64,000 bases of DNA from positions 62,001 to 126,000 of the forward strand of contig CAIMUX010000103.1 of assembly GCA_903844735.1 (NCBI GenBank), in the 5' to 3' direction. Both the position numbers and the translations under genes were made by a program. Positions 25,261 to 40,957 of the stretch are shown here, piece after piece. Origin of the DNA: Candidatus Eiseniibacteriota bacterium (GTDB lineage: Bacteria; Eisenbacteria; RBG-16-71-46; CAIMUX01). The notes under the pieces are model-generated. The model made no database searches. It saw only the letters and a program-made list of their open reading frames with translations, and was not told the DNA's origin. Each line of letters starts with the position of its first letter. Positions within the stretch are counted from its first letter, which is position 1.

Positions 25261-25838
25261 TGCGGCGCCTCCTGGTCCTCCTCGCGGTGTTGATCGCGGT
25301 CGGTGCCGGGATCCTGATTCTCCTCGGGCGCGGGCGCGTCCGCGAGCGGGATGTTCAGCCGCGTCCCTTCGCTGCGGCGGGCGAGGCGACGCTGCAGACG
25401 CTCCGCCTCTATTTCGCGGATCCCGCCGGGGGCGGTCTTGTGCGCGAGGACCGGTCGGCGGTGATGCCGGTGTCGCTGACCGAGCGGCTCACCACCTGCA
25501 TTCGTGAACTGGCGGATGGCTCTCACGCGGGGAACCTTCCGGTCCTGCCGCCTCATCCCGGCCTCGCGCGGGCCTTTGTCGACCCGTGGGGCCTTGCCTA
25601 CCTGGACTTTGACGTCGCCGTCGTCGCCTCGCCCGGCGACCGGGAGGAGTGGCTGCTCGTGGCCTCGATCGTGCGCACCGTCTGCGAGAACTTCTCCGAG
25701 GTCCGCGAGGTGCGCTTCATGGTGGGAGGGCAGGTGGTGACGAGCCTCGGCGGATACATCGACCTGGAGGAACCGCTCGGCCCGGAGGATTTTCCGCTCC
25801 TCCCGGCGGAGGGATTCGGTGATCGGGGGAGGCCATGA
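25257..25838 (+). CDS. GerMN-domain membrane-anchored protein
   Basis: 193 aa with an N-terminal membrane anchor (LLVLLAVLIAVGAGILILLG) and a single GerMN domain (LRLYFADPAGGGLVREDR, ALTERLTTCIRELADG-like region, AYLDFDVAV, IVRTVCENFSEVREVRFMVGG, plus the closing YIDLEEPL). GerMN domains occur in sporulation protein GerM and LpqB, acting at the envelope. No sporulation genes are seen here. The start overlaps the preceding stop (GTGA, or ATG at 25260), and the gene is coupled to murI downstream, matching the murI-gerM-rph-XTPase neighbourhood known from Bacillus (racE-gerM-rph-ysnA). Confidence 0.85.
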   Translation: MMRRLLVLLAVLIAVGAGILILLGRGRVRERDVQPRPFAAAGEATLQTLRLYFADPAGGGLVREDRSAVMPVSLTERLTTCIRELADGSHAGNLPVLPPHPGLARAFVDPWGLAYLDFDVAVVASPGDREEWLLVASIVRTVCENFSEVREVRFMVGGQVVTSLGGYIDLEEPLGPEDFPLLPAEGFGDRGRP

Positions 25839-26752
25839 GCGAACGGATGGACCAGAACGATCAGAAGGATCAGAGCGATCAGAAGGACCAGAAGAACCAG
25901 AAGGACCAGAAGGACCAGAAGGACCAGATGGACCGCCCCATTGGGGTCTTCGACTCGGGTATCGGCGGGCTCACGGTTGTGAGGCAGCTCATGGCCCACC
26001 TGCCCCGCGAGCACATTCTCTACTTCGGCGACTCGGCGCGCGTCCCGTACGGCACCAAGTCACCGGAGACTGTGACGCGCTTTTCGATCGAGAACGCACG
26101 ATTTCTGGTGCGGCGCGAGGTGAAGTTCATCGTGGTGGCCTGCAACACCGCGAGCGCGCTCGCCTTGCCGGTGCTGCAGCGACGGTTTGAGTTGCCGATG
26201 ATCGGCGTCATCGAGCCGGGGGCGAGGGCCGCGCTGCAGGTGACGCACAACAGGCGGATCGGCGTCATCGGCACTCTGGGGACGATCGCCTCGGGCGCCT
26301 ACGAGCGGCTGATCCTCTCGCTCGACGCCGCCTGCACCGTGGTCGAGGTCCCCTGTCCGCTCTTTGTGCCGTTGGCCGAGGAGGGATGGACCGACGGGCC
26401 GGTGGTAGAGCAGGTGGCGCGCATCTACCTTCAGCCGCTGCTGGATACCGGCATCGATACCCTCATTCTGGGTTGCACGCACTACCCGCTGCTGAAAGAC
26501 GTGATCGCGCGGGTGGCCGGCCCCTCGGTGACCCTCGTCGACACCGCCGAGGAGACGGTGCGGGCGGTGCGGGAGCGGCTTGAGATGCTCGGCTTGCGGC
26601 GAAACGACGAGGATGCCGGCGAGGGCGAGCGCCGCTTCTTTGTGAGTGACATCCCGGCCCAGTTCTCACAAGTCGGCGGGCGCTTTCTCGGCATGCCAAT
26701 CATGCAGGTGGAGTGGGTCGATCAGAGCGACTTGCCGTGGTTCGAGCGGTGA
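25835..26752 (+). CDS. murI: Glutamate racemase with DQK-repeat N-terminus
   Basis: Converts L- to D-glutamate for peptidoglycan. Catalytic cysteines in VVACNTASA and LGCTHYPLL; substrate loop GVFDSGIGGLTVV and YFGDSARVPYG. About 305 aa, of which residues 5-31 are a run of DQK/DQN units absent from normal MurI. ATG at 25835 overlaps the GerMN stop (ATGA); an internal ATG at 25928 (MDRPIGVFDSG) would give the normal enzyme length, so the tail may be untranslated or recently acquired. Confidence 0.96.
   Translation: MSERMDQNDQKDQSDQKDQKNQKDQKDQKDQMDRPIGVFDSGIGGLTVVRQLMAHLPREHILYFGDSARVPYGTKSPETVTRFSIENARFLVRREVKFIVVACNTASALALPVLQRRFELPMIGVIEPGARAALQVTHNRRIGVIGTLGTIASGAYERLILSLDAACTVVEVPCPLFVPLAEEGWTDGPVVEQVARIYLQPLLDTGIDTLILGCTHYPLLKDVIARVAGPSVTLVDTAEETVRAVRERLEMLGLRRNDEDAGEGERRFFVSDIPAQFSQVGGRFLGMPIMQVEWVDQSDLPWFER
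25850..25927 (+). repeat. GACCAGAAG-type microsatellite in murI 5' end
   Basis: 78 bp of degenerate 9-nt units (GACCAGAAG and GATCAGAAG variants) in frame with murI, encoding alternating DQK triplets. The last units are identical, as expected for slippage-driven growth. Confidence 0.9.
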
Positions 26753-29180: not shown

Positions 29181-29253
<73 letters not shown>

Positions 29254-29749
29254 CATGGTTGGACAAGAGGCTGCGGGATCGACGCGGCCTCTTTCTTTAT
29301 TTTGTCCCCGAGTGACCCTTGCGAGCGTGCGTCCGGTCTACGGTTGGTCAGCGATTGGCCGGTGATTGGTCTGCGATTGACCTGCGTTCCTGAGGGCCGG
29401 CGCATCGCCTTGGCCGCCGTGACCCACTTTCGTCCCACTTACTTGCGGCGACACGGGTCAATCCGGCGATCGTTGCATCGTTGGGCCCTCACGAGCGGGT
29501 GACCCTCGAATTGGCTCGCGAGTTGCCCGGGAAATGTTCTCAAGGGGGACGCGATCCCGGCCGATGGAATGGGCGGTACGGGGGCGTAGGCCACAAGGAG
29601 GCGAGGCGCGTTCGGCTCGACGGTGACGTCAGCGGCGTGCCCACCTTTCCACCTCGCCTGGCGAAGGATCGTCCGGGCAAAGATGGAAACGAGGTCGCGA
29701 CCCCGAATGGGCCCGGCGGTAACTGACGCTGGGCCCGGAGGTACTGGAC
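29254..29749. other. Leader region of the fibre-like cluster
   Basis: About 500 bp between tRNA-Lys and the first exported subunit. Short frames only. The last 100 bp, with GC-rich stems, could be a structured 5' leader. I see no certain promoter and no complete riboswitch consensus. Confidence 0.4.
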
Positions 29750-30301
29750 ATGCGCACGAGACTATTTTTCGCGTTGATGCTGCTCGCCGCGGTTGTTGCT
29801 GCGAGCCCGGTGTTCGCGGTGGACACCGACACGGAGAGCTCCGTTGTGGGAGGAACCATACCCGAGCTGTGCCAGCTCAGGATCGCCGGCACCGTCGCCG
29901 ACCTGCTGACCTTGACCCAGGACGGAAGTGGCGAGGCGGCATACGACGCCGGCTTCATCAATTCGGCGACCAACGCCACCGTGCTCACGATCGACTCCAA
30001 CGCGCCCTGGGTGCTCTCCGTGACCGCTACGGCATGGGCTGCGAATGGCGCGTACACCAAGCCCCTCACCGATCTCCTTCTCCACATCACGAACGCCCAG
30101 ATCGGAACCGATCCCGGCGGGTACGTTGACGACTTTGTGTCGCCTCCCGCGGCCTTGGACCCGATGCTAACGGATGCCGCGGTCGGGGTTTCCAACCGCG
30201 CGGTGTACATTCAGACGAGGGTCCTCCTGAACTGGGCGGATGACATACCGGGCGTATACAGCACGACCCTCGTCTACACCTTGGCAGCAACGGAGCTCTG
30301 A
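29750..30301 (+). CDS. Exported beta-rich subunit 1 of fibre-like cluster
   Basis: 183 aa. Clear signal peptide (MRTRLFFALMLLAAVVAA, cleavage after FA). The mature protein has alternating hydrophobic beta-strands: LRIAGTVADLLTLTQDG, GEAAYDAGFINSATNATVLT, APWVLSVTATAW, VYIQTRVLLNWADDIPGVYS and a terminal strand TTLVYTLAATEL. It is a paralogue of the next gene, sharing the DG.GEAAY..G, ATVLT, VYIQT.VLL.WA.D.PG.YS and YTL motifs. No family recognised. Size, signal peptide and end strand resemble secreted pilin or spore-coat-U-like subunits. Confidence 0.8.
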   Translation: MRTRLFFALMLLAAVVAASPVFAVDTDTESSVVGGTIPELCQLRIAGTVADLLTLTQDGSGEAAYDAGFINSATNATVLTIDSNAPWVLSVTATAWAANGAYTKPLTDLLLHITNAQIGTDPGGYVDDFVSPPAALDPMLTDAAVGVSNRAVYIQTRVLLNWADDIPGVYSTTLVYTLAATEL

Positions 30302-30358
30302 CCCCGGCGGCTCGGCTTCGATGGAACGGGCGCCGCAGGATGCAGCTCACGGCGAAAG

Positions 30359-30955
30359 GTGGCCAGGATGGCCCCGACGTTTGCACGGACGGCACAACAT
30401 AGACCAGCCGCGTGGCGGGTGAATCCCGCTGCGGTACTGGTTCTGTTCGCGCTTCTCGGCACCTCTTCCGCGGCCTCGGCCGAGGTGATCAAGCGCTCTT
30501 CGGTGATCGTAAACATGCCCCAACTGGCCGTGCTCGAGATCAGTGGCGACCTCACCGGCCTTCTCTCGCTTTCGCCCGACGGTCTCGGTGAGGCCGCGTA
30601 CGAGACCGGGTACGTCTCTTCCACGCCCGCCGCCACCGTTCTCACACTCAATGTTACCGGAGCCTGGGATTTGTCGGCTCGTCTCGCCGGCGCCTGGACC
30701 TGTCCGCCCGCGTACAACAAGGACGAGACAGATCTGGAGGTTCGCATCAGCAACACGCCGGTCGGCGATATCCAGAGCGGAGCCGAGGATTTCATCAGCC
30801 TTGGAACAACGGACACTTCGATCCTCTCCGGAACCTTCGGCGGCGGTCCGAATGTCGTCTATATCCAGACCAAGGTATTGCTGGACTGGGCCCGGGATGT
30901 CCCGGGCGACTACTCCATCTCGGTGACGTACACGTTGGTGGGAGAACTGCTCTAA
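30359..30955 (+). CDS. Exported beta-rich subunit 2 (paralogue of subunit 1)
   Basis: 198 aa with a longer N-terminal region before the hydrophobic signal core (AAVLVLFALLGTSSAASA). Mature part: GDLTGLLSLSPDGLGEAAYE, ATVLTLNVTGAWDLSARLAG, VYIQTKVLLDWARDVPGDYS and the C-terminal YTLVGELL. Same block order as subunit 1, so the two arose by duplication. Start could be 30368 (MAPTFA). Located 57 bp after subunit 1 and 9 bp before the chaperone-like gene. Confidence 0.78.
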   Translation: MARMAPTFARTAQHRPAAWRVNPAAVLVLFALLGTSSAASAEVIKRSSVIVNMPQLAVLEISGDLTGLLSLSPDGLGEAAYETGYVSSTPAATVLTLNVTGAWDLSARLAGAWTCPPAYNKDETDLEVRISNTPVGDIQSGAEDFISLGTTDTSILSGTFGGGPNVVYIQTKVLLDWARDVPGDYSISVTYTLVGELL

Positions 30956-30964
30956 GGAGGAACG

Positions 30965-31852
30965 ATGCGTTTCGCCAGGCATCTTCTCGTGATCTTCGTT
31001 ATGGCGGCCTTTCTGCCCGGCCCGGTTGAGGCCGCTTTTGTGGTCTCACCCATGGTCCATCAACTCCAGGTGCCGGCCGGGCAGCGGGGCAGCTCCACGA
31101 TCTTGGTCCGCAACAGCGGAAACCGGGTACTGACGCTGAAGCTCTATCTGGCGGACAGCCGATTCGGGCCGGACGGCCGGGAGAAAGACCTGCCGCTGGG
31201 AACCCTGGAGCGGAGCTGCGCCCCCTGGACCACCCTCGAATCCGAGTTGGTGGAATTGCAGGCGGGCGAGATGCGTCGCGTGAACCTCGATCTGGCTCCA
31301 CCTGCCGATGTCCGCGGAAGCTACTGGACGAAATTGTACGTCGAGGAGATCAGCACGCCGGAACCGGACCGACAGAACGTTAAAGGGCGCAGCTATCAGA
31401 TCTACGCGCGCCAGCGGATGGGCGTCCGGATCTTCGAGACTGTTCTGGGAACGGAGGAACCGGGCGCCGTGGTGAATCGGGTTAAGGTCGACACCGCCGA
31501 CGACACTCTCACCGTGACCCTGTCGGTGCTGAACACCGGTAACGCCCTGCTGCGGTGTCAGGGGAGGGTCGAGCTGCGCAACAGCCGCGGGGAGGTGCTG
31601 GAGACACTGCAACCGGGTGCCAAGGGGAAGTTCTCCGTCTTTCCCGGTGCGGAACGGGAGCTCCCGGTTCGGTCCACGCTGAAGCTTGCGGCCGATTCAT
31701 ACACGGTGCTGGCGATCGTGGACTATGGCGGAGAGAACCTGGTCGCCGGCGAGGAGTCGTTCCTGGTGGGGCCGAAGCCGGTGAAGAAGGCTCCGCCGTC
31801 GGTGAAGAAGAGTCCGTCATCGTTGGCCGCGGAACGATCCCGGAAGAAGTAG
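30965..31852 (+). CDS. Periplasmic pilus-chaperone-like protein
   Basis: 295 aa with signal peptide (LLVIFVMAAFLPGPVEA). First domain has the PapD-like strand order: AFVVSPMVHQLQVPAGQRGS, STILVRNSGNRVLTLKLYL, GEMRRVNLDLAPPADVRGSY, then QIYARQRMGVRIFET. A second Ig-like domain follows (TLTVTLSVLNTGNALLRC), and a Lys/Ser-rich tail ends ERSRKK. The RMGVR/IYARQ region matches the position where fimbrial chaperones bind subunits, but the exact COG3121 signature is not clear. Placed right after two subunit genes, consistent with a chaperone. Confidence 0.7.
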   Translation: MRFARHLLVIFVMAAFLPGPVEAAFVVSPMVHQLQVPAGQRGSSTILVRNSGNRVLTLKLYLADSRFGPDGREKDLPLGTLERSCAPWTTLESELVELQAGEMRRVNLDLAPPADVRGSYWTKLYVEEISTPEPDRQNVKGRSYQIYARQRMGVRIFETVLGTEEPGAVVNRVKVDTADDTLTVTLSVLNTGNALLRCQGRVELRNSRGEVLETLQPGAKGKFSVFPGAERELPVRSTLKLAADSYTVLAIVDYGGENLVAGEESFLVGPKPVKKAPPSVKKSPSSLAAERSRKK

Positions 31853-31876
31853 GGCGACTGCGTCGATGGACAGGAG

Positions 31877-32398
31877 ATGGTCATGCGTGGACGGGTGAGC
31901 GGCGCTGGGCTGGTCATGGCGGCGGTCTGCGCGATCTCCTTCTCGGTCGCCGCCCGTTCCTCCGCCGGAGAGACCGAGGTCCGCGTGGAAGTAGGGGTGA
32001 TCGTCCCCCCGCTGCAGCGTCTGGATGTCGACCCGTTGATCCTGGTGGCTCCGGAAATCCGCACGGAGGATCTCGCGATCGGATACGCGGAATTGACCCA
32101 GCCGGTGGTTCTCACCGTCTCGAGCAACGTGCCCTGGAATCTCTCGGTCCGTTGGGTCGTCGACGAGAAGATCGTCGTCGGTGGCGGCCGGGGGATCTCT
32201 TCGCTCCTCGACTGGAGCGTGCGCAACTCCCCCTCTCGGCCGGTGACCGGAGAGTGGGCGGTGGTGGTGAGCAATCGCGGGCCGACCGCGGCGGAACGGG
32301 TGGAACTGCACCTGCGCGTGCCCCTGCTCGCCGGCGCGCCGCCGCCGGGGATCTATCAGCCACGACTCGAATACCGGTTGGCGCCGGCGGAGGAATGA
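31877..32398 (+). CDS. Exported beta-rich subunit 3
   Basis: 173 aa, signal peptide (GLVMAAVCAISFSVAARSSA). Mature sequence begins ETEVRVEVGVIVPPLQRLDV and has LTQPVVLTVSSNVPWNLSVRW, echoing the ATVLT...APW.LSV block of subunit 1, and ends GIYQPRLEYRLAPAEE. So it is a distant member of the same subunit type. Stop is 1 bp before the next start codon. Confidence 0.75.
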   Translation: MVMRGRVSGAGLVMAAVCAISFSVAARSSAGETEVRVEVGVIVPPLQRLDVDPLILVAPEIRTEDLAIGYAELTQPVVLTVSSNVPWNLSVRWVVDEKIVVGGGRGISSLLDWSVRNSPSRPVTGEWAVVVSNRGPTAAERVELHLRVPLLAGAPPPGIYQPRLEYRLAPAEE

Positions 32399-32399
32399 C

Positions 32400-32984
32400 G
32401 TGCACGCCGTGAGCACCGAGGCGAAGGCCGTGCGATCAGGAGGTACTTCCCGACACCGCGCCCCCACCGGGAGCCGATCGGGATACCGGGAGCTGCTGGT
32501 GCCGCGCCTGCCGGTGCTGAGCGCGTTGGTGCTGGGTCTTCTTTTCCCGTTGGCTCCGGCGGGAATGGTCCGAGCGGAGAGCGCTAGCCTGTCGGTTCAG
32601 GCCAGGCGCGTTCTCCTTCCGCTCGTTATCGAGGAGTCGCTGGATGCCGGGCACCTCGACGCTGATGAAGCGCACGGCGTCAGCGCGATCGTTGTCGAGG
32701 TAACGGCGCCCCAGGACAGCACCGGTTGGGTTCTGTACGTTCGGGCCGAGCAGCCCGCGTTTTCGGGTGAAGGTGCGGGAAAACCCTGCACCGACCTTCA
32801 ATGGAAACCGGATCAGGCGAACGCGGCCGACTACCGCGTTCTGGATGACCATGAGACAGTGGTGGCTGCAAATCCCCGTGGGGGCAATGCTCGGATCGCG
32901 CTGGATGTGCGTCTGGGCATGGGCTGGACGTCCCGTCCGGGCACCTACGGGCTCGGCCTCATCTTCCGCGTCGCACCCTACTAG
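32400..32984 (+). CDS. Exported beta-rich subunit 4
   Basis: 194 aa. GTG at 32400 is the likely start. The signal core is LSALVLGLLFPLAPAGMVRA. Mature part ASLSVQARRVLLPLVIEES, VVEVTAPQDSTGWVLYVRAE, ending RPGTYGLGLIFRVAPY, i.e. the P.G.Y followed by a terminal strand seen in all four small subunits. Two cysteines are absent from the others except one in KPCTDL. Located 1 bp after subunit 3. Confidence 0.7.
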   Translation: MHAVSTEAKAVRSGGTSRHRAPTGSRSGYRELLVPRLPVLSALVLGLLFPLAPAGMVRAESASLSVQARRVLLPLVIEESLDAGHLDADEAHGVSAIVVEVTAPQDSTGWVLYVRAEQPAFSGEGAGKPCTDLQWKPDQANAADYRVLDDHETVVAANPRGGNARIALDVRLGMGWTSRPGTYGLGLIFRVAPY

Positions 32985-33036
32985 GCGGCGTGGCGAGACG
33001 GTCCGTGGAGCCGCCCCGGCGAGAGGTCGCCGTTGG

Positions 33037-35889
33037 ATGATGGTACCCCTGTTGCCGCTGCTTGCCACGGCACCGACCTCGTTTTCCGCCGTTCGTTCCG
33101 ACGTCACATTGAGTGCCGTCGAGACCGTGATCCCCGCCCCGGGGGAGTTCGCCACGTTCGCCTGTCGGGCCGAGTACCGGCCCGACTCGCCATCGGGCCC
33201 TTGCCGCCTGCTGGTTCGATTTCAGGCGCCGAACGGGTGGCACGCGGTGTCGTCCGAACGCGCCGTCAGCGTGGAGCCCGGCGAAGGGCTGGTCGTGCCG
33301 TTCACCGCCTGGGTACCGCCACAGGCCTCTTCCGACACACTGCACACCGCGCGGTTCACTCTCTCTTCGCTGCCGGACTCGTCTCTCCTGGCTGTGGTCG
33401 AGAGCGGATTGCGGGTGCGGACCACGTACGGGTTGAAGCTCGAATCCTCCACCGAAAAACTGGAACTGCGGGCCGGCGAGAAGGCGAGCTTTACCGTGAC
33501 GGTACGGAATACCGGTAACAACACCGACACGTTCCGGCTGGAGACCGAGTCGTCGCCTTTGTGGTCGGTCGTCTTGGACTCGGCGGAGGTCGTGGTGCCG
33601 GCGGGGGCGACGTCCGCGGTTGCGGTGATCGTAGGGGTGCCATCCGGAACGCGGGCGGGGACCATGCACCTGATCGGCCTATCGGCGGTGTCGGAGGGCG
33701 CCGAGCGGTCATGGCTCGATAGACAGCCGAGCGAGCGCGTCGAGGTGCGCGCCTCGACGAGGGCGCCGAGAGAAGTGACGAGCCGCTACGCTCGTTTGCC
33801 GCTCGATGCTGAGATTTCCGCCGGGGAGGTCGCGCCGGGTCAGCCTCGGGTCGGGTTGCGCGTCAGTTCCTCGGGACAGGTGGGACCGGGCACCGCGGTT
33901 CAGGTCGAAGCCGACCTGGCCTCCGGGCCGCGCGCGGACGCGGGCAATGCATGGCAGAACCAGCTCCTGCGTGCCCGGGTGACGCGGGCGGCCTGGGACG
34001 TCTCTGCCGGCGACGTGAGTGGCGAATTTTCCGACCTGGCGGCGGCGACTATCTCCGGCCGAGGGATCGGGCTCACCGCTAAACAAGAGGCCTGGACCGT
34101 GCGGGCGCTCGGCGTTCGCAATCGGGGCGTTGGTCACACGCAATCGTGGGGCATGGGGCTGAGCCGGATGCTATCGAACGGGCCCCAAGTCGGGGGGGAT
34201 CTTGTCTATCGGCAGGAAAGTGTTGGAAGGTTCGGCGTCCGCTCCGATCGCTTGTTGTCCCTGACCAGCGGGTGGGACGCGCCGCACGGGGTCCGCTTGA
34301 ACGGCGATCTGGCGCTCTCCGGCACCAGCCTGGCGGAAAAAGCCTCGACCGGCCGTGCGGTCCAGCTCGTGGCCGATCGCGCCGGGCGGCCGGTACAACT
34401 GCGGGCGAGACTGTACGCCGGATCTCCCGGCTTCGGCGGGCGCACGCGTGATCGCGACGGCATGCTGTTCTTCGGTTCGTATGCCCCGAAGTCGAAGCCG
34501 CTCCGATGCTGGTCCCATCTGGAGAGTACCCGTGGCCGATCGTGGTCCACCGGCGGTTCGCCGATGGCGAAGACCACTCGCTACCGGACCGGCGCGCGCT
34601 GGGAGCGGCTGAGATGGCCGGGCCTGGAGGTGAGTCTGGGTGGGCTCGATGATCGGTCCGTACTGGGCGACAGTGCAAGATCCAGCACGCGTCACGATGC
34701 CGGGGTCACGGCCTCCTGGTCGCGCGATCGGTTTCTGGCCGCCGTGACATTTCGTGCCGGGGCGGCCCGGGATCGCTCTTCGGGCCGATCGGGGCCGATC
34801 AACAGCGCCGAACTCAACGCGGGCGGGAGCGTGCGGGACTGGCGGCTGGCACTCCGCTGGAATCGGGAACGCGACTGGGCTCCGCTCACCGATGCTTCCT
34901 CGACCACGCAAGCCCTGGCGGCGGACGCAGCCTGGATCTCGCCGTCGGACCGTTTCACCGGGGGCCTCGGTGTCAGCTCCCGCCGTATCGACGCAGGGCG
35001 CGCCGCCGCGTCGAAGAATGTCGAGTTCCGGCTGCAACCGCGTGGTGAGTACCGGCTCGGGGCGAAGCTGCGGCTCCGGCTGGACGCATTTATTACCGAC
35101 ATGACCGGTTCGACTCGCGTGGATAGTTGGCAGATTTCGTTCTGCTACGCCTCCGACGAAATGGTGCCGGTTCCGTGGATTCCCGTGCGGGGCGGCATCC
35201 GCGGCGTAGCCTTCCTCGACGCCGACGGCGACGGGGAGCCGGATGCCGGGGAAGAACGGGTGGAAGGCCTGGTGCTGCGCCTGGATGGCCGGCACCAGGT
35301 GACCGATCGAATCGGCGTATTCGAGTGGCCCGCGCTGGATCCGGCCACCTACTGGCTTGATCTCGACCGCGCCTCCATTCCGGCCGGGTTGGTGGTGTCG
35401 GCGACCCTGCCTATCGAGGCGCGAGTAGAAGCCGGTGAGGATCTGCCGTTGCTGATTCCGCTGCTGCCAAGCGGCGAAACGAGCGGGATCATCTTCCGGG
35501 ACGACAATCACGATGGTCAACAGGCTGCCCCGGAGGCCGGCGTGCCTGATATGCGAGTGATAGCCTGGCGGGACGGAAGGCAGATCGCGGACGGCATCAC
35601 AGACCGCCAGGGTCGTTTTCACCTGCGCGGACTCCCGGTAGGGGCCTACGAGCTGCGCATCGACCCCGCCTGGCTTCCCGATGGCTGGGTCGCCACCGGG
35701 ACGGGAGCTGCCGGGTTCACGGTCACGTCGGGGCGACATGTAAACCTGGCGCCCTTCGGTATCGGGCCCCGCAAGAAGCCGATCATCATCACCTACCCGG
35801 GAAGCCGCGTGCCTGAGGAGCAGGAGGGGGCGCCGCCGCTGCCCCCGCGAGACTTTCCCGCGGAGCCCGACCGCCGGCCGACGCGGTAG
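33037..35889 (+). CDS. Large Ig-like / predicted outer-membrane barrel / SdrD-B-like protein
   Basis: 950 aa. Signal peptide MMVPLLPLLATAPTSFSA. Residues about 20-240: two NEW3/Ig-like domains (VRNTGNNTDTFRLE, LDSAEVVVPAGATSAVAVIV). Residues about 270-700: alternating amphipathic strands with many aromatic/Arg turns (SRMLSNGPQVGGDLVYRQES, RYRTGARWERLRWPGLEVSL, VDSWQISFCYASDE), suggesting an outer-membrane barrel. Residues 710-900: two SdrD-B/Cna-B-like units (GGIRGVAFLDADGDGEPDAG and GIIFRDDNHDGQQAAPEAGV), then a Pro-rich tail. No FimD/PapC usher signature seen. As the last gene of the fibre-like run it is the candidate export platform or anchor. Confidence 0.75.
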   Translation: MMVPLLPLLATAPTSFSAVRSDVTLSAVETVIPAPGEFATFACRAEYRPDSPSGPCRLLVRFQAPNGWHAVSSERAVSVEPGEGLVVPFTAWVPPQASSDTLHTARFTLSSLPDSSLLAVVESGLRVRTTYGLKLESSTEKLELRAGEKASFTVTVRNTGNNTDTFRLETESSPLWSVVLDSAEVVVPAGATSAVAVIVGVPSGTRAGTMHLIGLSAVSEGAERSWLDRQPSERVEVRASTRAPREVTSRYARLPLDAEISAGEVAPGQPRVGLRVSSSGQVGPGTAVQVEADLASGPRADAGNAWQNQLLRARVTRAAWDVSAGDVSGEFSDLAAATISGRGIGLTAKQEAWTVRALGVRNRGVGHTQSWGMGLSRMLSNGPQVGGDLVYRQESVGRFGVRSDRLLSLTSGWDAPHGVRLNGDLALSGTSLAEKASTGRAVQLVADRAGRPVQLRARLYAGSPGFGGRTRDRDGMLFFGSYAPKSKPLRCWSHLESTRGRSWSTGGSPMAKTTRYRTGARWERLRWPGLEVSLGGLDDRSVLGDSARSSTRHDAGVTASWSRDRFLAAVTFRAGAARDRSSGRSGPINSAELNAGGSVRDWRLALRWNRERDWAPLTDASSTTQALAADAAWISPSDRFTGGLGVSSRRIDAGRAAASKNVEFRLQPRGEYRLGAKLRLRLDAFITDMTGSTRVDSWQISFCYASDEMVPVPWIPVRGGIRGVAFLDADGDGEPDAGEERVEGLVLRLDGRHQVTDRIGVFEWPALDPATYWLDLDRASIPAGLVVSATLPIEARVEAGEDLPLLIPLLPSGETSGIIFRDDNHDGQQAAPEAGVPDMRVIAWRDGRQIADGITDRQGRFHLRGLPVGAYELRIDPAWLPDGWVATGTGAAGFTVTSGRHVNLAPFGIGPRKKPIIITYPGSRVPEEQEGAPPLPPRDFPAEPDRRPTR

Positions 35890-36081: not shown

Positions 36082-36428
36082 GGGGGCGACCAGGTTTCGA
36101 CGGGGGAGGGGAGGCAGGGACTGCGTGCCGAGGTGCCGGGACCTCGTAAATCCTCTGGCAAAACGACAACTGCCAACACTGAATTGGCACTCGCAGCCTA
36201 ACTAACTGCGACGTCCACCGCGATTCTGTCTGCCGGGTCGTGGCCGGACGCTGTAACGGCGGGCTGGTCGGCTGAGTGCTCGACGATGCTGACGAGATAG
36301 TGCTAGAGCTGGCCCTTGGCGAATCCTGTCGATGGGAGCCGCCCGGGGCGAGATCAAATCATCGAACACGCACGTAGATGTCGCTGTGGAACTTCTTTCG
36401 GACGCGGGTTCGATTCCCGCCGCCTCCA
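36082..36428 (+). ncRNA. ssrA: tmRNA (ssrA)
   Basis: Starts GGGGGCGACCAGGTTTCGAC, the classic tmRNA 5' end, and closes with a tRNA-like T arm (GCGGGTTCGATTCCCGC) and acceptor CGCCTCC that pairs with the 5' end. The resume codon GGC at 36157 opens the tag frame GKTTTANTELALAA followed by TAA at 36199. Length 347 nt. CCA is not encoded. Partner SmpB is at 22943. Its 3' end is the integration site of the adjacent island. Confidence 0.96.
36157..36201 (+). other. tmRNA proteolysis-tag reading frame
   Basis: 14 codons plus TAA encoding GKTTTANTELALAA, added after the alanine carried by tmRNA. The LAA end is the ClpXP/ClpAP degron. Confidence 0.93.
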
Positions 36429-36512
36429 CACTGGGCACGCCTCCGGCGTGCCTGCTTCTAAGGAGGCGGGCTTCTCGATCCCCTTCGGGGATCTCGGGTC
36501 CCGCCGCCTCCA
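36406..36512 (+). repeat. Island-flanking direct repeat, ssrA side (attL-like)
   Basis: 107 bp starting in the tmRNA T arm. It matches 44495-44601 over its full length with a handful of mismatches. Inside, the tmRNA 3' end sequence occurs twice (at 36406-36428 and 36494-36512), separated by two perfect hairpins (GCACGCCTCCGGCGTGC and GATCCCCTTCGGGGATC). Confidence 0.9.
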
Positions 36513-36722: not shown

Positions 36723-36772
36723 GTAATCGTTGACCTTGCGACTTGCGAGTTCGGAACTGTCAACGAGGGAAG

Positions 36773-37984
36773 ATGATCAAGGATCGCCTCAAACAAGCCA
36801 GGATTGCCTCCGGGATGACCCAGGACGAAGTTGTCGGAGCGCTGGCGGCGAAGGGAATCTCCCTGACCAAGGGGGGACTTTCCAAGTACGAGCGTGGCGG
36901 CAGCATCCCGAAGCCTTCAGTTCTCCGTGCTCTCGGGCGCATCCTCGGTGTTGATTCGTCGTATTTCCTGGAGGAGCCAAGCATCACGGTTCGGTGGCTA
37001 GCATTCCGCAAGGCATCTCGGATGGGGAAGGCAAGGCAGGAACGCGTCAAGGCCCAGGCGGAATCGGAGCTTGAGAGTCTCCTCGCACTTCGCCGAGCCC
37101 TCGATCCGGCCGCGACACCCGAAGATCTGCCGCCCCGAACGCGAGTGCGGAAGCTCGAGGATGCCGAGCTGGCTGCCGATGGGCTGCGTGAGCAATGGCG
37201 CCTTGGAGACCAGCCGATCGAGAGTGTGACAGCCGCCATCGAAGACGGTGGTGGGGTGGTCGTGGAGTCAGGCGGGGATGAAGACCTCTTCGACGGTCTG
37301 TCCGGCTGGGCCAATAACACCGTGCCTGTGGTGGTCGTGAGCCCCGCGGTGTCGGCCGACCGTCGTCGATTCAGTATAGCCCACGAACTGGGGCACCTCT
37401 TCATGGACACCGGCAAGGTCGACAGAGGGACCGAAGAGAAACTCGCGCACCGGTTTGGCGCGGCATTCCTGGTACCGGCGGCCTGTGCGCGCCGCGAACT
37501 GGGTGCGAAGCGCCGGCGTCTGGAATTTCGTGAGTTGGCGATGCTGAAGCAGAAGTATGGACTGAGCATGCAAGGGTGGATTCTTCGCGCTGCGGACCTT
37601 GGCATCATCGATCCGTCGCATGTACGCACGCTGTTTGCGGAAATGAGCTCGCGGGGTTGGCGGCGTGAAGAGCCGGTTGGCTTTGAAGGAAAGGAACGCC
37701 CGCAGAAGCTGCGGCAACTAACCGTTCGGGCCCTGGCCGAGGGACTGCTGACCTGCCAACAGGCAGAGCGGATCCTTCCCGGCGTCACCCGTGAGATGGA
37801 GGAGGTTCAGGTGGCCGGTGCCCTCAGTGCGCGATCGCTGTTGCAGATGCCCCGGGAAGAGCGGGATCGGTTGATGAAGCAGGCGTCGGCGCTGGTTGCC
37901 CAGGACTACCAGGACGGTGGTGCCCTCTCCGGCTTAGAGTTGCTCTCAGAGGAGGACCACCTTGACCGGTCCGTTGACGACTAA
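36773..37984 (+). CDS. XRE-HTH / ImmA-IrrE metallopeptidase regulator
   Basis: 403 aa fusion. Residues 1-70: XRE helix-turn-helix (LKQARIASGMTQDEVVGALA, GGLSKYERGGSIPKPSVLRA). Residues about 200-290: ImmA/IrrE peptidase with HELGH zinc site (RRFSIAHELGHLFMDTGK) and the downstream region EEKLAHRFGAAFLVPA. C-terminal 100 residues are helical and may act as an antitoxin to the overlapping MazF-like gene. Such proteins cleave or sense partner repressors in integrative elements (ImmA of ICEBs1). ATG at 36773 follows CGAGGGAAG. Confidence 0.93.
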   Translation: MIKDRLKQARIASGMTQDEVVGALAAKGISLTKGGLSKYERGGSIPKPSVLRALGRILGVDSSYFLEEPSITVRWLAFRKASRMGKARQERVKAQAESELESLLALRRALDPAATPEDLPPRTRVRKLEDAELAADGLREQWRLGDQPIESVTAAIEDGGGVVVESGGDEDLFDGLSGWANNTVPVVVVSPAVSADRRRFSIAHELGHLFMDTGKVDRGTEEKLAHRFGAAFLVPAACARRELGAKRRRLEFRELAMLKQKYGLSMQGWILRAADLGIIDPSHVRTLFAEMSSRGWRREEPVGFEGKERPQKLRQLTVRALAEGLLTCQQAERILPGVTREMEEVQVAGALSARSLLQMPREERDRLMKQASALVAQDYQDGGALSGLELLSEEDHLDRSVDD

Positions 37985-38324
37985 TCCGGTGCGCGCGGAG
38001 GTGTGGCTGATTCGGTTCGATCCGACGAAAGGCGCGGAGATCGGCAAGACGCGGCCGGCGGTTGTCGTGAACCCACCCTCCGTCGGGCGGCTGCCTCTGC
38101 GGATCGTCGTTCCGGTAACAGGGTGGGATTCCAGGTACGCCACGGTGCCGTGGCTTGTTCACCTGGAGCCCCGCCCGCGCAACGGCCTGACGAAGGAGTC
38201 GGCCGCGGATTGCTTCCAGGTGAAGTCCGTCTCGGTGGCAAGGTTCAGTTCCAAGATCGGAGTTGTGAGTGGCGAGGAGATCGAGGAAATCAGTGCGGCT
38301 GTCGCCCTGTGCGTGGGCGCGTAG
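37962..38324 (+). CDS. MazF/PemK-like endoribonuclease toxin
   Basis: 120 aa with MazF features: VRAEVWLIRFDPTKGAEIGKTRPAVVV (read in parts), LPLRIVVPVTGW, and the strand FQVKSVSVARFSSKIG. TTG at 37962 has GAGGA upstream; GTG at 37989 is an alternative. It overlaps the end of the XRE-ImmA gene by 23 bp, so the upstream protein's C-terminus is the likely antitoxin. MazF toxins cut mRNA at short motifs. Confidence 0.9.
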   Translation: MTGPLTTNPVRAEVWLIRFDPTKGAEIGKTRPAVVVNPPSVGRLPLRIVVPVTGWDSRYATVPWLVHLEPRPRNGLTKESAADCFQVKSVSVARFSSKIGVVSGEEIEEISAAVALCVGA

Positions 38325-38341
38325 TCCGTCAGATTGCGCCT

Positions 38342-40957
38342 TCAGACCTCCTCCTCGATGTGGCAAGGATCCACTCTGTCATTCTCGCCCGACGATTCCG
38401 CGGACGGCTCAGCAAGGCCCAGCGGCGCTTCTCCCCGCGCATAACCGATCGCTCGATACGTCCGCAGCCGCTTCTCGAACATGCGAAGTAGCATGGGCAC
38501 CTCGCGGTCCACGTAGTCGTAGATCCGGACTTCTTTCTTGCCGGGATGCAGCCGGTGAAGGCGACCGGTGTACTGCACCAACGTTCCCTTCCACGAGATA
38601 GGCATGGCCAGAAACAGCGTGTCCAGTCTGGCGTCGTCGAACCCCTCGCCGATGTATCGCCCGGTCGCGAGGACGAGATGTCCATCGCCGTCAGCCCGTT
38701 CGGCCACTCGGGCCGCCAGTTCTCGCCGCTCCTTCACCTTCATGCCGCCGTGGAGAACGGTGACGCGTCGAGTCGTACGGCGCAATCGTTCGGTGAAGTA
38801 CTCAAGATGGTCCCGACGTTCGGTCAACAGGATGGGGGACCGTCCGTCATCCAAGGCCCGCATCAGGTCGCTCATGATGAGCGAGTTTCTGGTGTCGTCG
38901 GTTGCGAGTGCGGCATAGATGCCCTGGATGCCGGCCTGATCTGCCGTGCCATCGGTGCAAAACGCCGTCTCGCGGATGATGAGCTTGTGTTCGAAAGGTC
39001 GATGTGCGGCGTGACTCTTGGGATCGATGGCGAAGCGCACCGGCCCGAGTTGCATTTCGGTGATCGGATGGTGACCGTCGCGACGTTGCAGCGTTGCCGT
39101 CAGCCCGACCACGTAGCGCGCCTTCACTTCCGACAGGATTCGTTCGAATGACACGGCCGGGATGTGGTGGCACTCGTCGACGATGACCTGGCCGTAGGAG
39201 GCCACGCGGTCCTCGACAGAACCCAGTCGCGTGAGGCTCTGGATCATCGCCACGTCCAGCCGGCCGGTGAGCTTGCGCTTGCCGCCCCCGATCTGGCCGA
39301 TGTCCTTCTCCTCAATCCCGAGAAACATCGCGAGCTGGGTGATCCATTGGTCGAGCAGCGGCAGGCGGTGCACCAGTACGAGGGTGCTCCGCCCGCGGGC
39401 AGCGACGAGAAACGTCCCGACGACGGTCTTGCCAATTCCCGGTGGCGCGACGAAGACGCCGATATCCTGCGCGAGGAGGGCACGCGCGGCCTGCTCCTGT
39501 ACCGGCGTCAGCGCGCCGAGAAAACGGAACGCAACCGGCTCGCCTTCGTGACGTTGGTCTTCGGTGATCAGCGTCACACCGCACGCGGCAAGAAGGGCCC
39601 TCAAGTTCGCCAGACATCCGCGCGGGAGGCCCACGTGCTCGGAGAACTCCTCCGCGCAGTCGATCACCCGCGGCGTCATGGCCGTCGAGAGCCGCATCTT
39701 CTGCTTCTTGTAGAACTCCGGATTCTGAAAGGCGGCGAGACGCTTGATCTGGTTCAGGATGGGCGAGGAGAGTCCCGCCTTTTCGACGAAGACGCGCTGG
39801 GAAAGGACAGCGCGCACCTCCTTTGGCAGCGTTCCGGTGACGGGCACGAGAGACGGCCTACCGGAGGGCGGCCGCGCCCAGGGGACTGCATCCTGGTTGG
39901 TGTCGGATTCGGCGAGGCGCACGCCAATGACAGTGCCGCGGCGCGCCGCCTCGTGGGCGATCGCTTCCGCAACGACGGGATCCATGGGCACGACCGACGC
40001 CAGGTAGGTCCATTGCTCCATGTCGGGGTAGGGCTGGAGGTCTTCGTCGAGGAAGACGGTGTTGCCCAGCTGTCGCGGTTGATATTGAAGCGGCAGAGCA
40101 ATCAGGTTTCCGAAGCCACCGCTTGGCATCGTGTCCTGGCTCGGAAAGAGCCGGTCGTACGACTCCATGCTGAGTTGGTGGTGGCGGGTCATCGTTTCCG
40201 TGATCAGGTGGCAACCCAGCTTGCGGGCCGTGACCGCAGGCACGGGCGCGCTGAAGAAGAACCAGGCGTGGGCGCCGTTGCCGGATCGCGAGCGCTCGAT
40301 AGAGACTGGCACTCCGATCGAGCGGCAAGTTCCCTGGAAGGCGGACACGTCTGCCCGCCAGGATTGCTTGTCGAAGTCGGCTGCCAGGAACCAGCAGGTG
40401 TCATCCTCCAGGAGTGGATAGACGCCCATGACGTGGCGGTCCTGAAGGTGGTCCAGTACGGCCTGGTCGGTGACCGGGGCAAAGGCCTGGTTCGGACACT
40501 CTGTGCACTTTACCTTCGGGAGCCCGCAGACACCTGGCACGAACTTGTCCGTGCACAACGGAGCGTAGCCGGGCTTGCCCGTCTTCTTACTGACGAAACG
40601 AGTGGGGAACACGTCCTCGCGACCGCGAAACAGGGACCGGAAGAGGCGCACCTTCTCCACCGGGGTGGTCGGGACCGTCGCTTGAACGAGCAGGGAGCGC
40701 CGTGGGCTGACTACCGGCAGTGAGGCCGCCTCCGATTCCTGCCGGAGGGCGTCGAGGCGTGCGCATACGTCCGTACGATCGCGTTCAAGCTCGGCAAGCC
40801 GGGCTTCAAGCTCAGCGATCTTGGCCCGGGTCTCGTCCGTCGTTTTCCTGCCTCCCGTCCGTGTCGGCCGAGGTCTGGATACCGGAGAGCGGAGCTGCCA
40901 GCGGTGGCATGTCGGTGACGAGGAGACCGGCCGGCCTACGCGACACCGACACGGCAT
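38342..40957 (-). CDS. AEP primase - SF2 helicase fusion (AEP-TOTE-like), copy 1
   Basis: 871 aa as opened at ATG 40957, but the paralogue at 45209-46171 starts at a Met equivalent to residue 33, where this copy has CGG; the true start is uncertain. Order: coiled coil (RAKIAELEARLAELERDRTD), archaeo-eukaryotic primase domain with DxD (FLAADFDKQSW) and GxH (SGNGAHAWFFF), then helicase motif I (APPGIGKTVVG), DECH (VIVDECHHIPA), motif III (VVGLTATLQRRDG) and motif VI region (QYTGRLHRLHPGKKEV). This matches the fusion I recall as AEP-TOTE conflict-system proteins. It is the last gene of the minus-strand island operon. Confidence 0.88.
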   Translation of the reverse strand: MPCRCRVGRPVSSSPTCHRWQLRSPVSRPRPTRTGGRKTTDETRAKIAELEARLAELERDRTDVCARLDALRQESEAASLPVVSPRRSLLVQATVPTTPVEKVRLFRSLFRGREDVFPTRFVSKKTGKPGYAPLCTDKFVPGVCGLPKVKCTECPNQAFAPVTDQAVLDHLQDRHVMGVYPLLEDDTCWFLAADFDKQSWRADVSAFQGTCRSIGVPVSIERSRSGNGAHAWFFFSAPVPAVTARKLGCHLITETMTRHHQLSMESYDRLFPSQDTMPSGGFGNLIALPLQYQPRQLGNTVFLDEDLQPYPDMEQWTYLASVVPMDPVVAEAIAHEAARRGTVIGVRLAESDTNQDAVPWARPPSGRPSLVPVTGTLPKEVRAVLSQRVFVEKAGLSSPILNQIKRLAAFQNPEFYKKQKMRLSTAMTPRVIDCAEEFSEHVGLPRGCLANLRALLAACGVTLITEDQRHEGEPVAFRFLGALTPVQEQAARALLAQDIGVFVAPPGIGKTVVGTFLVAARGRSTLVLVHRLPLLDQWITQLAMFLGIEEKDIGQIGGGKRKLTGRLDVAMIQSLTRLGSVEDRVASYGQVIVDECHHIPAVSFERILSEVKARYVVGLTATLQRRDGHHPITEMQLGPVRFAIDPKSHAAHRPFEHKLIIRETAFCTDGTADQAGIQGIYAALATDDTRNSLIMSDLMRALDDGRSPILLTERRDHLEYFTERLRRTTRRVTVLHGGMKVKERRELAARVAERADGDGHLVLATGRYIGEGFDDARLDTLFLAMPISWKGTLVQYTGRLHRLHPGKKEVRIYDYVDREVPMLLRMFEKRLRTYRAIGYARGEAPLGLAEPSAESSGENDRVDPCHIEEEV

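Follow-up and report, generated by a model that had tools for sequence, protein, structure and literature searches.

WxL clusters are cell-wall systems of Gram-positive bacteria and chaperone–usher pili are outer-membrane systems, in the loci of which subunits are paired with a PapD-like chaperone and a FimD-type usher. In WxL clusters several WxL proteins accompany each WxLIP, which carries a C-terminal membrane helix, and strand completion between WxLIP and WxL has been predicted with AlphaFold2 (PMC10599100). Strand completion is established in chaperone–usher systems, where the archaic chaperone CsuC binds its subunit in a mode of its own (PMC4654587). In this study, we analysed a window of 64,000 nucleotides from a Candidatus Eiseniibacteriota bacterium (contig CAIMUX010000103.1, positions 62,001 to 126,000; coordinates below are those of the window), in which six genes at 29750–35889 encode four small exported proteins (S1–S4), a chaperone-like protein with two immunoglobulin (Ig) domains (CH) and a large protein (US). 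The cassette is conserved and has no name; it shares its chaperone with WxL systems and probably works like a chaperone–usher system. Having neither PF00345 and PF00577 nor PF13731 and the membrane helix, it is filed under neither of the two.

The six open reading frames (ORFs) lie on the + strand in the order S1, S2, CH, S3, S4 and US, separated by 57, 9, 24, 1 and 52 bases, and the genes of S2 and CH share one frame with a single TAA in between. Each of the six proteins begins with an N-terminal hydrophobic segment that reads as a signal peptide. A C-terminal signal of the type IX secretion system (T9SS) or an LPXTG-type sorting signal was found neither at the six C-termini, which were read directly, nor in the Pfam and NCBIfam results. 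The host genome contains eight Omp85 matches and the host is therefore a diderm. The same gene order, which an earlier note on this DNA had proposed to look for elsewhere, is kept by the whole six-gene set at two loci (L015 and L016) of a second genome of the order, belonging to another family (G003), with tblastn identities of 55% for S1, 46–50% for S2, 51% for CH, 33–35% for S3, 42–44% for S4 and 31% for US. This twofold recurrence of the complete set, with its order unchanged, places the arrangement beyond chance. A genome of the same family holds a US relative of 42% identity that is interrupted by the contig end, and other Eisenbacteria show the order S, CH and a shorter US, in some of which the NEW3 domains are missing. 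Shorter versions are also found on Deinococcus plasmids (NW-56, D7000, D. psychrotolerans and AB2017081) as small protein, CH, small protein and US, and in D. deserti (VCD115, plasmid 2) as small protein, CH, US and small protein. For further relatives in the genome contigs, one scan gave none and an alignment scan returned one locus that was already known.

The small proteins S1 (29750–30301; 183 residues, signal peptide cut at about 29819), S2 (30359–30955; 198 residues), S3 (31877–32398; 173 residues) and S4 (32400–32984; 194 residues), all on the + strand, form one family. A profile of S3 and S4 matches that of S1 and S2 with an expect value (E) of 1.2e-11 (hhalign; reversed control 0.1), and S4 by itself matches the latter at 3e-6, the reversed controls in the subunit comparisons giving 0.1–0.3. 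A W-x-L motif stands at the same place in all 12 subunits of the window and the two loci of the second genome (at 30008–30016 in S1, 30665–30673 in S2, 32135–32143 in S3 and 32727–32735 in S4), and all 12 have a closing strand that follows the pattern G-x-Y...L-x-Y/F-x-L/V/I, which reads PG-x-Y...L-x-Y/F-x-L in the window family. The relatives of S4 occupy the same place as S4 in both loci. In the AlphaFold2 model of S2 the core (mature residues 44–156) has a predicted local distance difference test score (pLDDT) of mostly 55–79, and the N-terminal 43 residues are without resolved structure. The family extends to the small protein 3′ of the chaperone gene on the Deinococcus plasmids (E = 3.5e-5; control 0.15), three of four copies of which have PWTV at the W-x-L place, and to the small proteins of the shorter cassettes in the phylum (E = 1.9e-4; control 0.056). 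The window subunits match neither the WxL profile PF13731 nor the SCPU and DUF4402 models, and their assignment as WxL or DUF4402 subunits was rejected, the profile comparisons not being significant. The comparison of the family profile with actinobacterial small proteins was likewise not significant (E = 0.14); one of the latter, encoded beside a DUF916 gene, matches PF13731 below its cut-off (E = 3e-4). The earlier note had described four small exported proteins with common blocks, tightly packed on one strand with two larger ones, and this description stands; its block ‘W.LS’ is real, and had gone unrecognised as the W-x-L motif.

CH (30965–31852, + strand; 295 residues) is a two-Ig protein of the WxLIP/PapD kind. 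Among solved structures, WxLIP, which partners the WxL surface proteins of Gram-positive bacteria, is closest to it in both fold and sequence. Searches of Pfam, NCBIfam and the PDB with the single sequence gave nothing clear; a profile of 11 homologues, however, matches the solved Enterococcus faecium WxLIP structures 9i25 and 9i1y (E = 1.5e-4, profile positions 36–263). Outside Deinococcus, the proteins matched by a Deinococcus CH homologue in tblastn at relaxed E are mostly annotated as DUF916. Aligned with four actinobacterial DUF916/WxLIP proteins by hhalign, CH matches over 217 columns (99.6%, E = 7.6e-24), and an independent alignment gives 2.4e-21 (reversed control 0.24). The Pfam model of WxLIP, PF06030, has no match above threshold among 47 genomes of the phylum at E ≤ 0.01, and the Deinococcus and Eisenbacteria homologues of CH fall under its curated cut-off (E = 0.0017–0.15); the link to WxLIP is thus one of profile–profile and fold evidence. 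For the latter, S2 and CH were modelled with AlphaFold2 as one read-through chain in which the intervening TAA was read as glycine. CH has a pLDDT of 86–96 over most of the chain, and the top Foldseek matches of the model are WxLIP 9i1y and 9i25 (E = 4e-12), followed by various Ig assemblies. Chaperones rank behind WxLIP, between 7e-9 and 3e-7 (CfaA, 7e-9; CsuC, 8e-9; CupB2; FimC), which establishes the two-Ig chaperone fold. From its sequence, the predicted strands and its position relative to PapD and WxLIP, the segment SYQIYARQRMGVRIFE of domain 1 (31391–31438, + strand) is a candidate donor strand of the G1 type. The C-terminal membrane helix is absent from CH, the maximum 19-residue hydropathy there being 0.85, compared with 1.6–3.2 in the actinobacterial relatives.

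A further relationship links CH with the chaperones encoded at DUF4402 loci (E = 1e-16). Two of these exceed the cut-off of PapD_N (PF00345), and the group in turn is related to chaperones of E. coli (E = 3e-7). One such locus lies in the same phylum (L064), and its chaperone is matched by the CH profile at E = 4e-14. WxLIP is a closer relative of CH than these chaperones are, and a search with PF00345 gave no match either in CH (E ≤ 5) or anywhere else in the host genome. A comparison of CH with the NEW3 domains of US served as a control and gave 2e-6 in hhalign, so that likeness at the level of the Ig fold can by itself reach 1e-6; the links of CH at or below 1e-16, which span both domains, lie well above this level. 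Two other arrangements of CH-like proteins were observed. In one genome (G009, locus L023, 1473–3194) a 573-residue protein consists of tandem CH-like units, a doubled WxLIP type, and lies beside a 332-residue exported protein. In another (G001, locus L062, 5840–11483) a CH homologue preceded by two exported proteins is followed by a 945-residue protein that has a T9SS/FlgD-like tail (AGVYFATMRWG...) and is not of the barrel type of US.

US (33037–35889, + strand; 950 residues, ATG start) comprises a signal peptide, two NEW3-type Ig domains (33091–33765), approximately 465 residues of strands (33763–35160) and two SdrD-B/carboxypeptidase-regulatory-like units (35173–35790). The domain order suggests an usher, of which it is not proof: the Ig domains stand at the place of the chaperone-binding N-terminal domain (NTD) and the last two units at that of the C-terminal domains CTD1 and CTD2. 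In Pfam, SdrD_B is found in two stretches (E = 5e-11) and the NEW3/FixG_C Ig domains remain sub-threshold. An NCBIfam assignment as ‘choice-of-anchor T’ (E = 2e-11) was rejected, as it covers the NEW3 part alone and is far under the cut-off. Against Deinococcus proteins, hhalign gives 6e-17 for the N-terminal part and 7e-12 for the C-terminal part. Given its likeness to CH, the N-terminal part may have been derived from a chaperone-like domain. For the middle, AlphaFold2 predicts at low confidence a meander in which as many as 24 long amphipathic strands follow one another and no insertion is large enough for a plug. By a simple home-made score, which counts alternating (dyad) amphipathic segments, it has a z of 2.2, compared with 1.6–6.8 in its relatives and 1.3–3.5 in known E. 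coli outer-membrane barrels; most non-barrel controls score at most 1.5, and one ORF of the window reaches 3.0. In Foldseek, SdrD ranks first, followed by FimD and PapC over the full length (E = 3e-10 and weaker). Taken together, US is probably an outer-membrane barrel protein. PF00577 (Usher) has no match in the host genome or in the 47 genomes of the phylum. The earlier note's composition of US and its statement that usher, sortase and T9SS signal are lacking are borne out by these results. Its comparison of CH with a pilus chaperone holds for the fold and had missed the nearest relative, WxLIP; its usher-like US agrees with the domain order, the Foldseek ranking and the amphipathic strands, but the barrel carries no usher signal in its sequence.

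These properties place the cassette between several described systems. Like WxL/WxLIP (DUF916–DUF3324) clusters, it combines a protein of the same two-Ig family with several adjoining small secreted proteins that carry W-x-L; an Arthrobacter locus likewise has small proteins flanking its DUF916 gene on both sides. Unlike them, it has a CH without membrane helix, subunits without a PF13731 match that carry one invariant W-x-L instead of two, an additional probable outer-membrane barrel protein and a diderm host. On actinobacterial plasmids (Arthrobacter, Cellulosimicrobium) a DUF916 protein that carries a membrane helix is accompanied by one or more small secreted proteins, and the stretches of these loci that were read contain no barrel-type protein. 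With the archaic and alternative chaperone–usher systems (CsuC–CsuD, CfaA, EcpB–EcpC) the cassette shares the two-Ig chaperone fold, small exported subunits, a large protein, probably of the outer membrane, that has two sandwiches at its C-terminus, and the organization in one apparent operon, but it differs in lacking PF00345 and PF00577, in having NEW3 in place of the usher NTD and no visible plug, and in subunits that match neither SCPU nor DUF4402. The DUF4402 loci (for example on Polaromonas sp. JS666 plasmid 2 and at L064) agree with the cassette in gene order, their chaperones are homologues of CH, and their large proteins have, like US, the C-terminal SdrD-B/CarboxypepD pair; their subunits, however, are DUF4402 proteins, and their large proteins have an N-terminal and plug-like block that US lacks and barrels that cannot be aligned with that of US by sequence. 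The order subunit, chaperone and large protein, with DUF4402 and a PapD-like chaperone, also occurs on Polaromonas, Sphingopyxis and Novosphingobium plasmids. From this comparison of loci, the chaperone is the common element and the barrel-type protein goes with the possession of an outer membrane. That the actinobacterial DUF916 loci have no barrel, and do have the helix that CH lacks, would follow if US were the part specific to diderms.

We therefore consider, with a probability of roughly 0.45, that the genes form an exported-protein assembly cassette built on chaperone–usher logic. S1–S4, the W-x-L subunits, would reach the periplasm by means of their signal peptides and would be held there by CH, probably through the loan of a β-strand, as predicted for WxLIP and WxL and as CsuC does for CsuA/B, which would keep them soluble. 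US, as an outer-membrane barrel with the NEW3 Ig domains before it and the two SdrD-B sandwiches after it, would receive the complexes of CH with the subunits and hand the subunits on to the cell surface, and there they might join to form a short fibre or coat. From these comparisons we infer all of the steps that follow secretion into the periplasm: barrel formation, donor-strand binding, transport through US and polymerization.

Several results weigh against this proposal. The AlphaFold2 model of US, built on four alignment rows, is poor (mean pLDDT 53, predicted template modelling score 0.35) and superposes on ushers with a template modelling (TM) score of about 0.2, so that the ranking of FimD and PapC reflects strand order rather than real superposition. 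Cross-phylum homology of the barrel is undetectable against Deinococcus (E = 0.37), although both flanks are homologous; against E. coli ushers the barrel stays near the control level in hhalign. An apparent full-length homology of US to the large proteins of the DUF4402 loci (E = 2e-19) was discarded, as the C-terminal domains accounted for the whole of it; the barrel by itself gave 0.11, which is no signal at the barrel level. A plug is not evident in the low-confidence model, NEW3 domains occupy the position of the usher NTD, and the NEW3 domains match CH at least as well as the E. coli chaperones do directly (E = 1e-4), so that the latter match carries little weight by itself. The fibre and the usher role of US are likewise what we infer rather than observe.

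Several other explanations were considered. The nearness of CH to WxLIP in both sequence and fold would also fit a static surface complex of the WxL type that has moved to a diderm. CH would then remain in the complex as a structural component, the role proposed for WxLIP in Enterococcus, and US would serve only as an outer-membrane anchor, with neither polymerization nor transport through it. Where the monoderm DUF916 protein ends in a membrane helix, the cassette has a CH without one and a probable barrel protein, which as an anchor would take the place of the helix; four different subunits with no single repeated major subunit also suit a fixed complex, as do the several WxL proteins found per WxLIP in WxL clusters (PMC10599100). 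A lone anchor, however, needs no barrel of up to 24 strands, and the barrel, the two C-terminal sandwiches and the usher ranking in Foldseek suggest more than anchoring, which leaves a static complex, although it is the strongest of the competing readings, rather unlikely. It is more doubtful still that the cassette is an ordinary chaperone–usher system of the archaic or DUF4402 type that has drifted beyond the profile databases and whose mechanism is not new. The chaperone of L064 found by the CH profile within the phylum, the C-terminal domains that US has in common with the DUF4402-locus large proteins (E = 1.6e-18) and the gene order of the proteobacterial plasmids named above would be accounted for; the plug-like block and N-terminal domain kept by those large proteins and absent from US, subunits that are not DUF4402 and the greater closeness of CH to WxLIP would not.

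The poorly modelled barrel region also admits a reading of US as a long secreted β-rich adhesin, composed of Ig and SdrD-B domains and not inserted in the membrane, with the small proteins and CH serving to decorate it or to bring it to maturity. Surface adhesins often contain NEW3 and SdrD-B domains, and staphylococcal SdrD is the top Foldseek match of US, but ushers follow directly after it over the full length. Long alternating strands with short turns run through approximately 465 residues, and the dyad amphipathicity of most relatives lies at or above the level of known outer-membrane barrels; we regard an adhesin as improbable.

The cassette sits between a tRNA-Lys gene (29181–29254), which is followed by a terminator-like stem (29265–29293), and a transfer-messenger RNA (tmRNA) gene (36082–36429, tag ANTELALAA). 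Genes of both kinds are common integration sites. Just beyond the tmRNA gene, a defence-like stretch (36743–40957) encodes a protein with a helix–turn–helix and an IrrE-type peptidase, a PemK/MazF-like toxin (E = 5e-22) and, on the opposite strand, a TOTE conflict-system primase–helicase (AEP-TOTE, E = 3e-91). Upstream, at 25837–25934, the N-terminus of a glutamate racemase-like gene consists of about ten copies of a 9-base unit encoding DQK-type repeats.

In the literature searched, no paper was found that treats DUF916 and PapD together, and ‘WxL domain’ and ‘chaperone–usher’ occur together only in a survey of protein localization in monoderms. A bolder and rather doubtful possibility is that the cassette is a living link between WxL/WxLIP complexes and chaperone–usher pili, both descended from a common strand-donating two-Ig chaperone, and with the chaperone here serving W-x-L subunits by way of an outer-membrane usher that has no plug and is gated by its NEW3 Ig domains. 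The cassette makes it testable whether WxLIP acts as a chaperone and whether the WxL and chaperone–usher systems have a common origin, and experimental material is offered by those cultured Deinococcus strains that carry homologous cassettes on plasmids. The combination of a WxLIP-type helper with a probable outer-membrane gate has no name, and it hints at a common design of two systems that have been studied separately.

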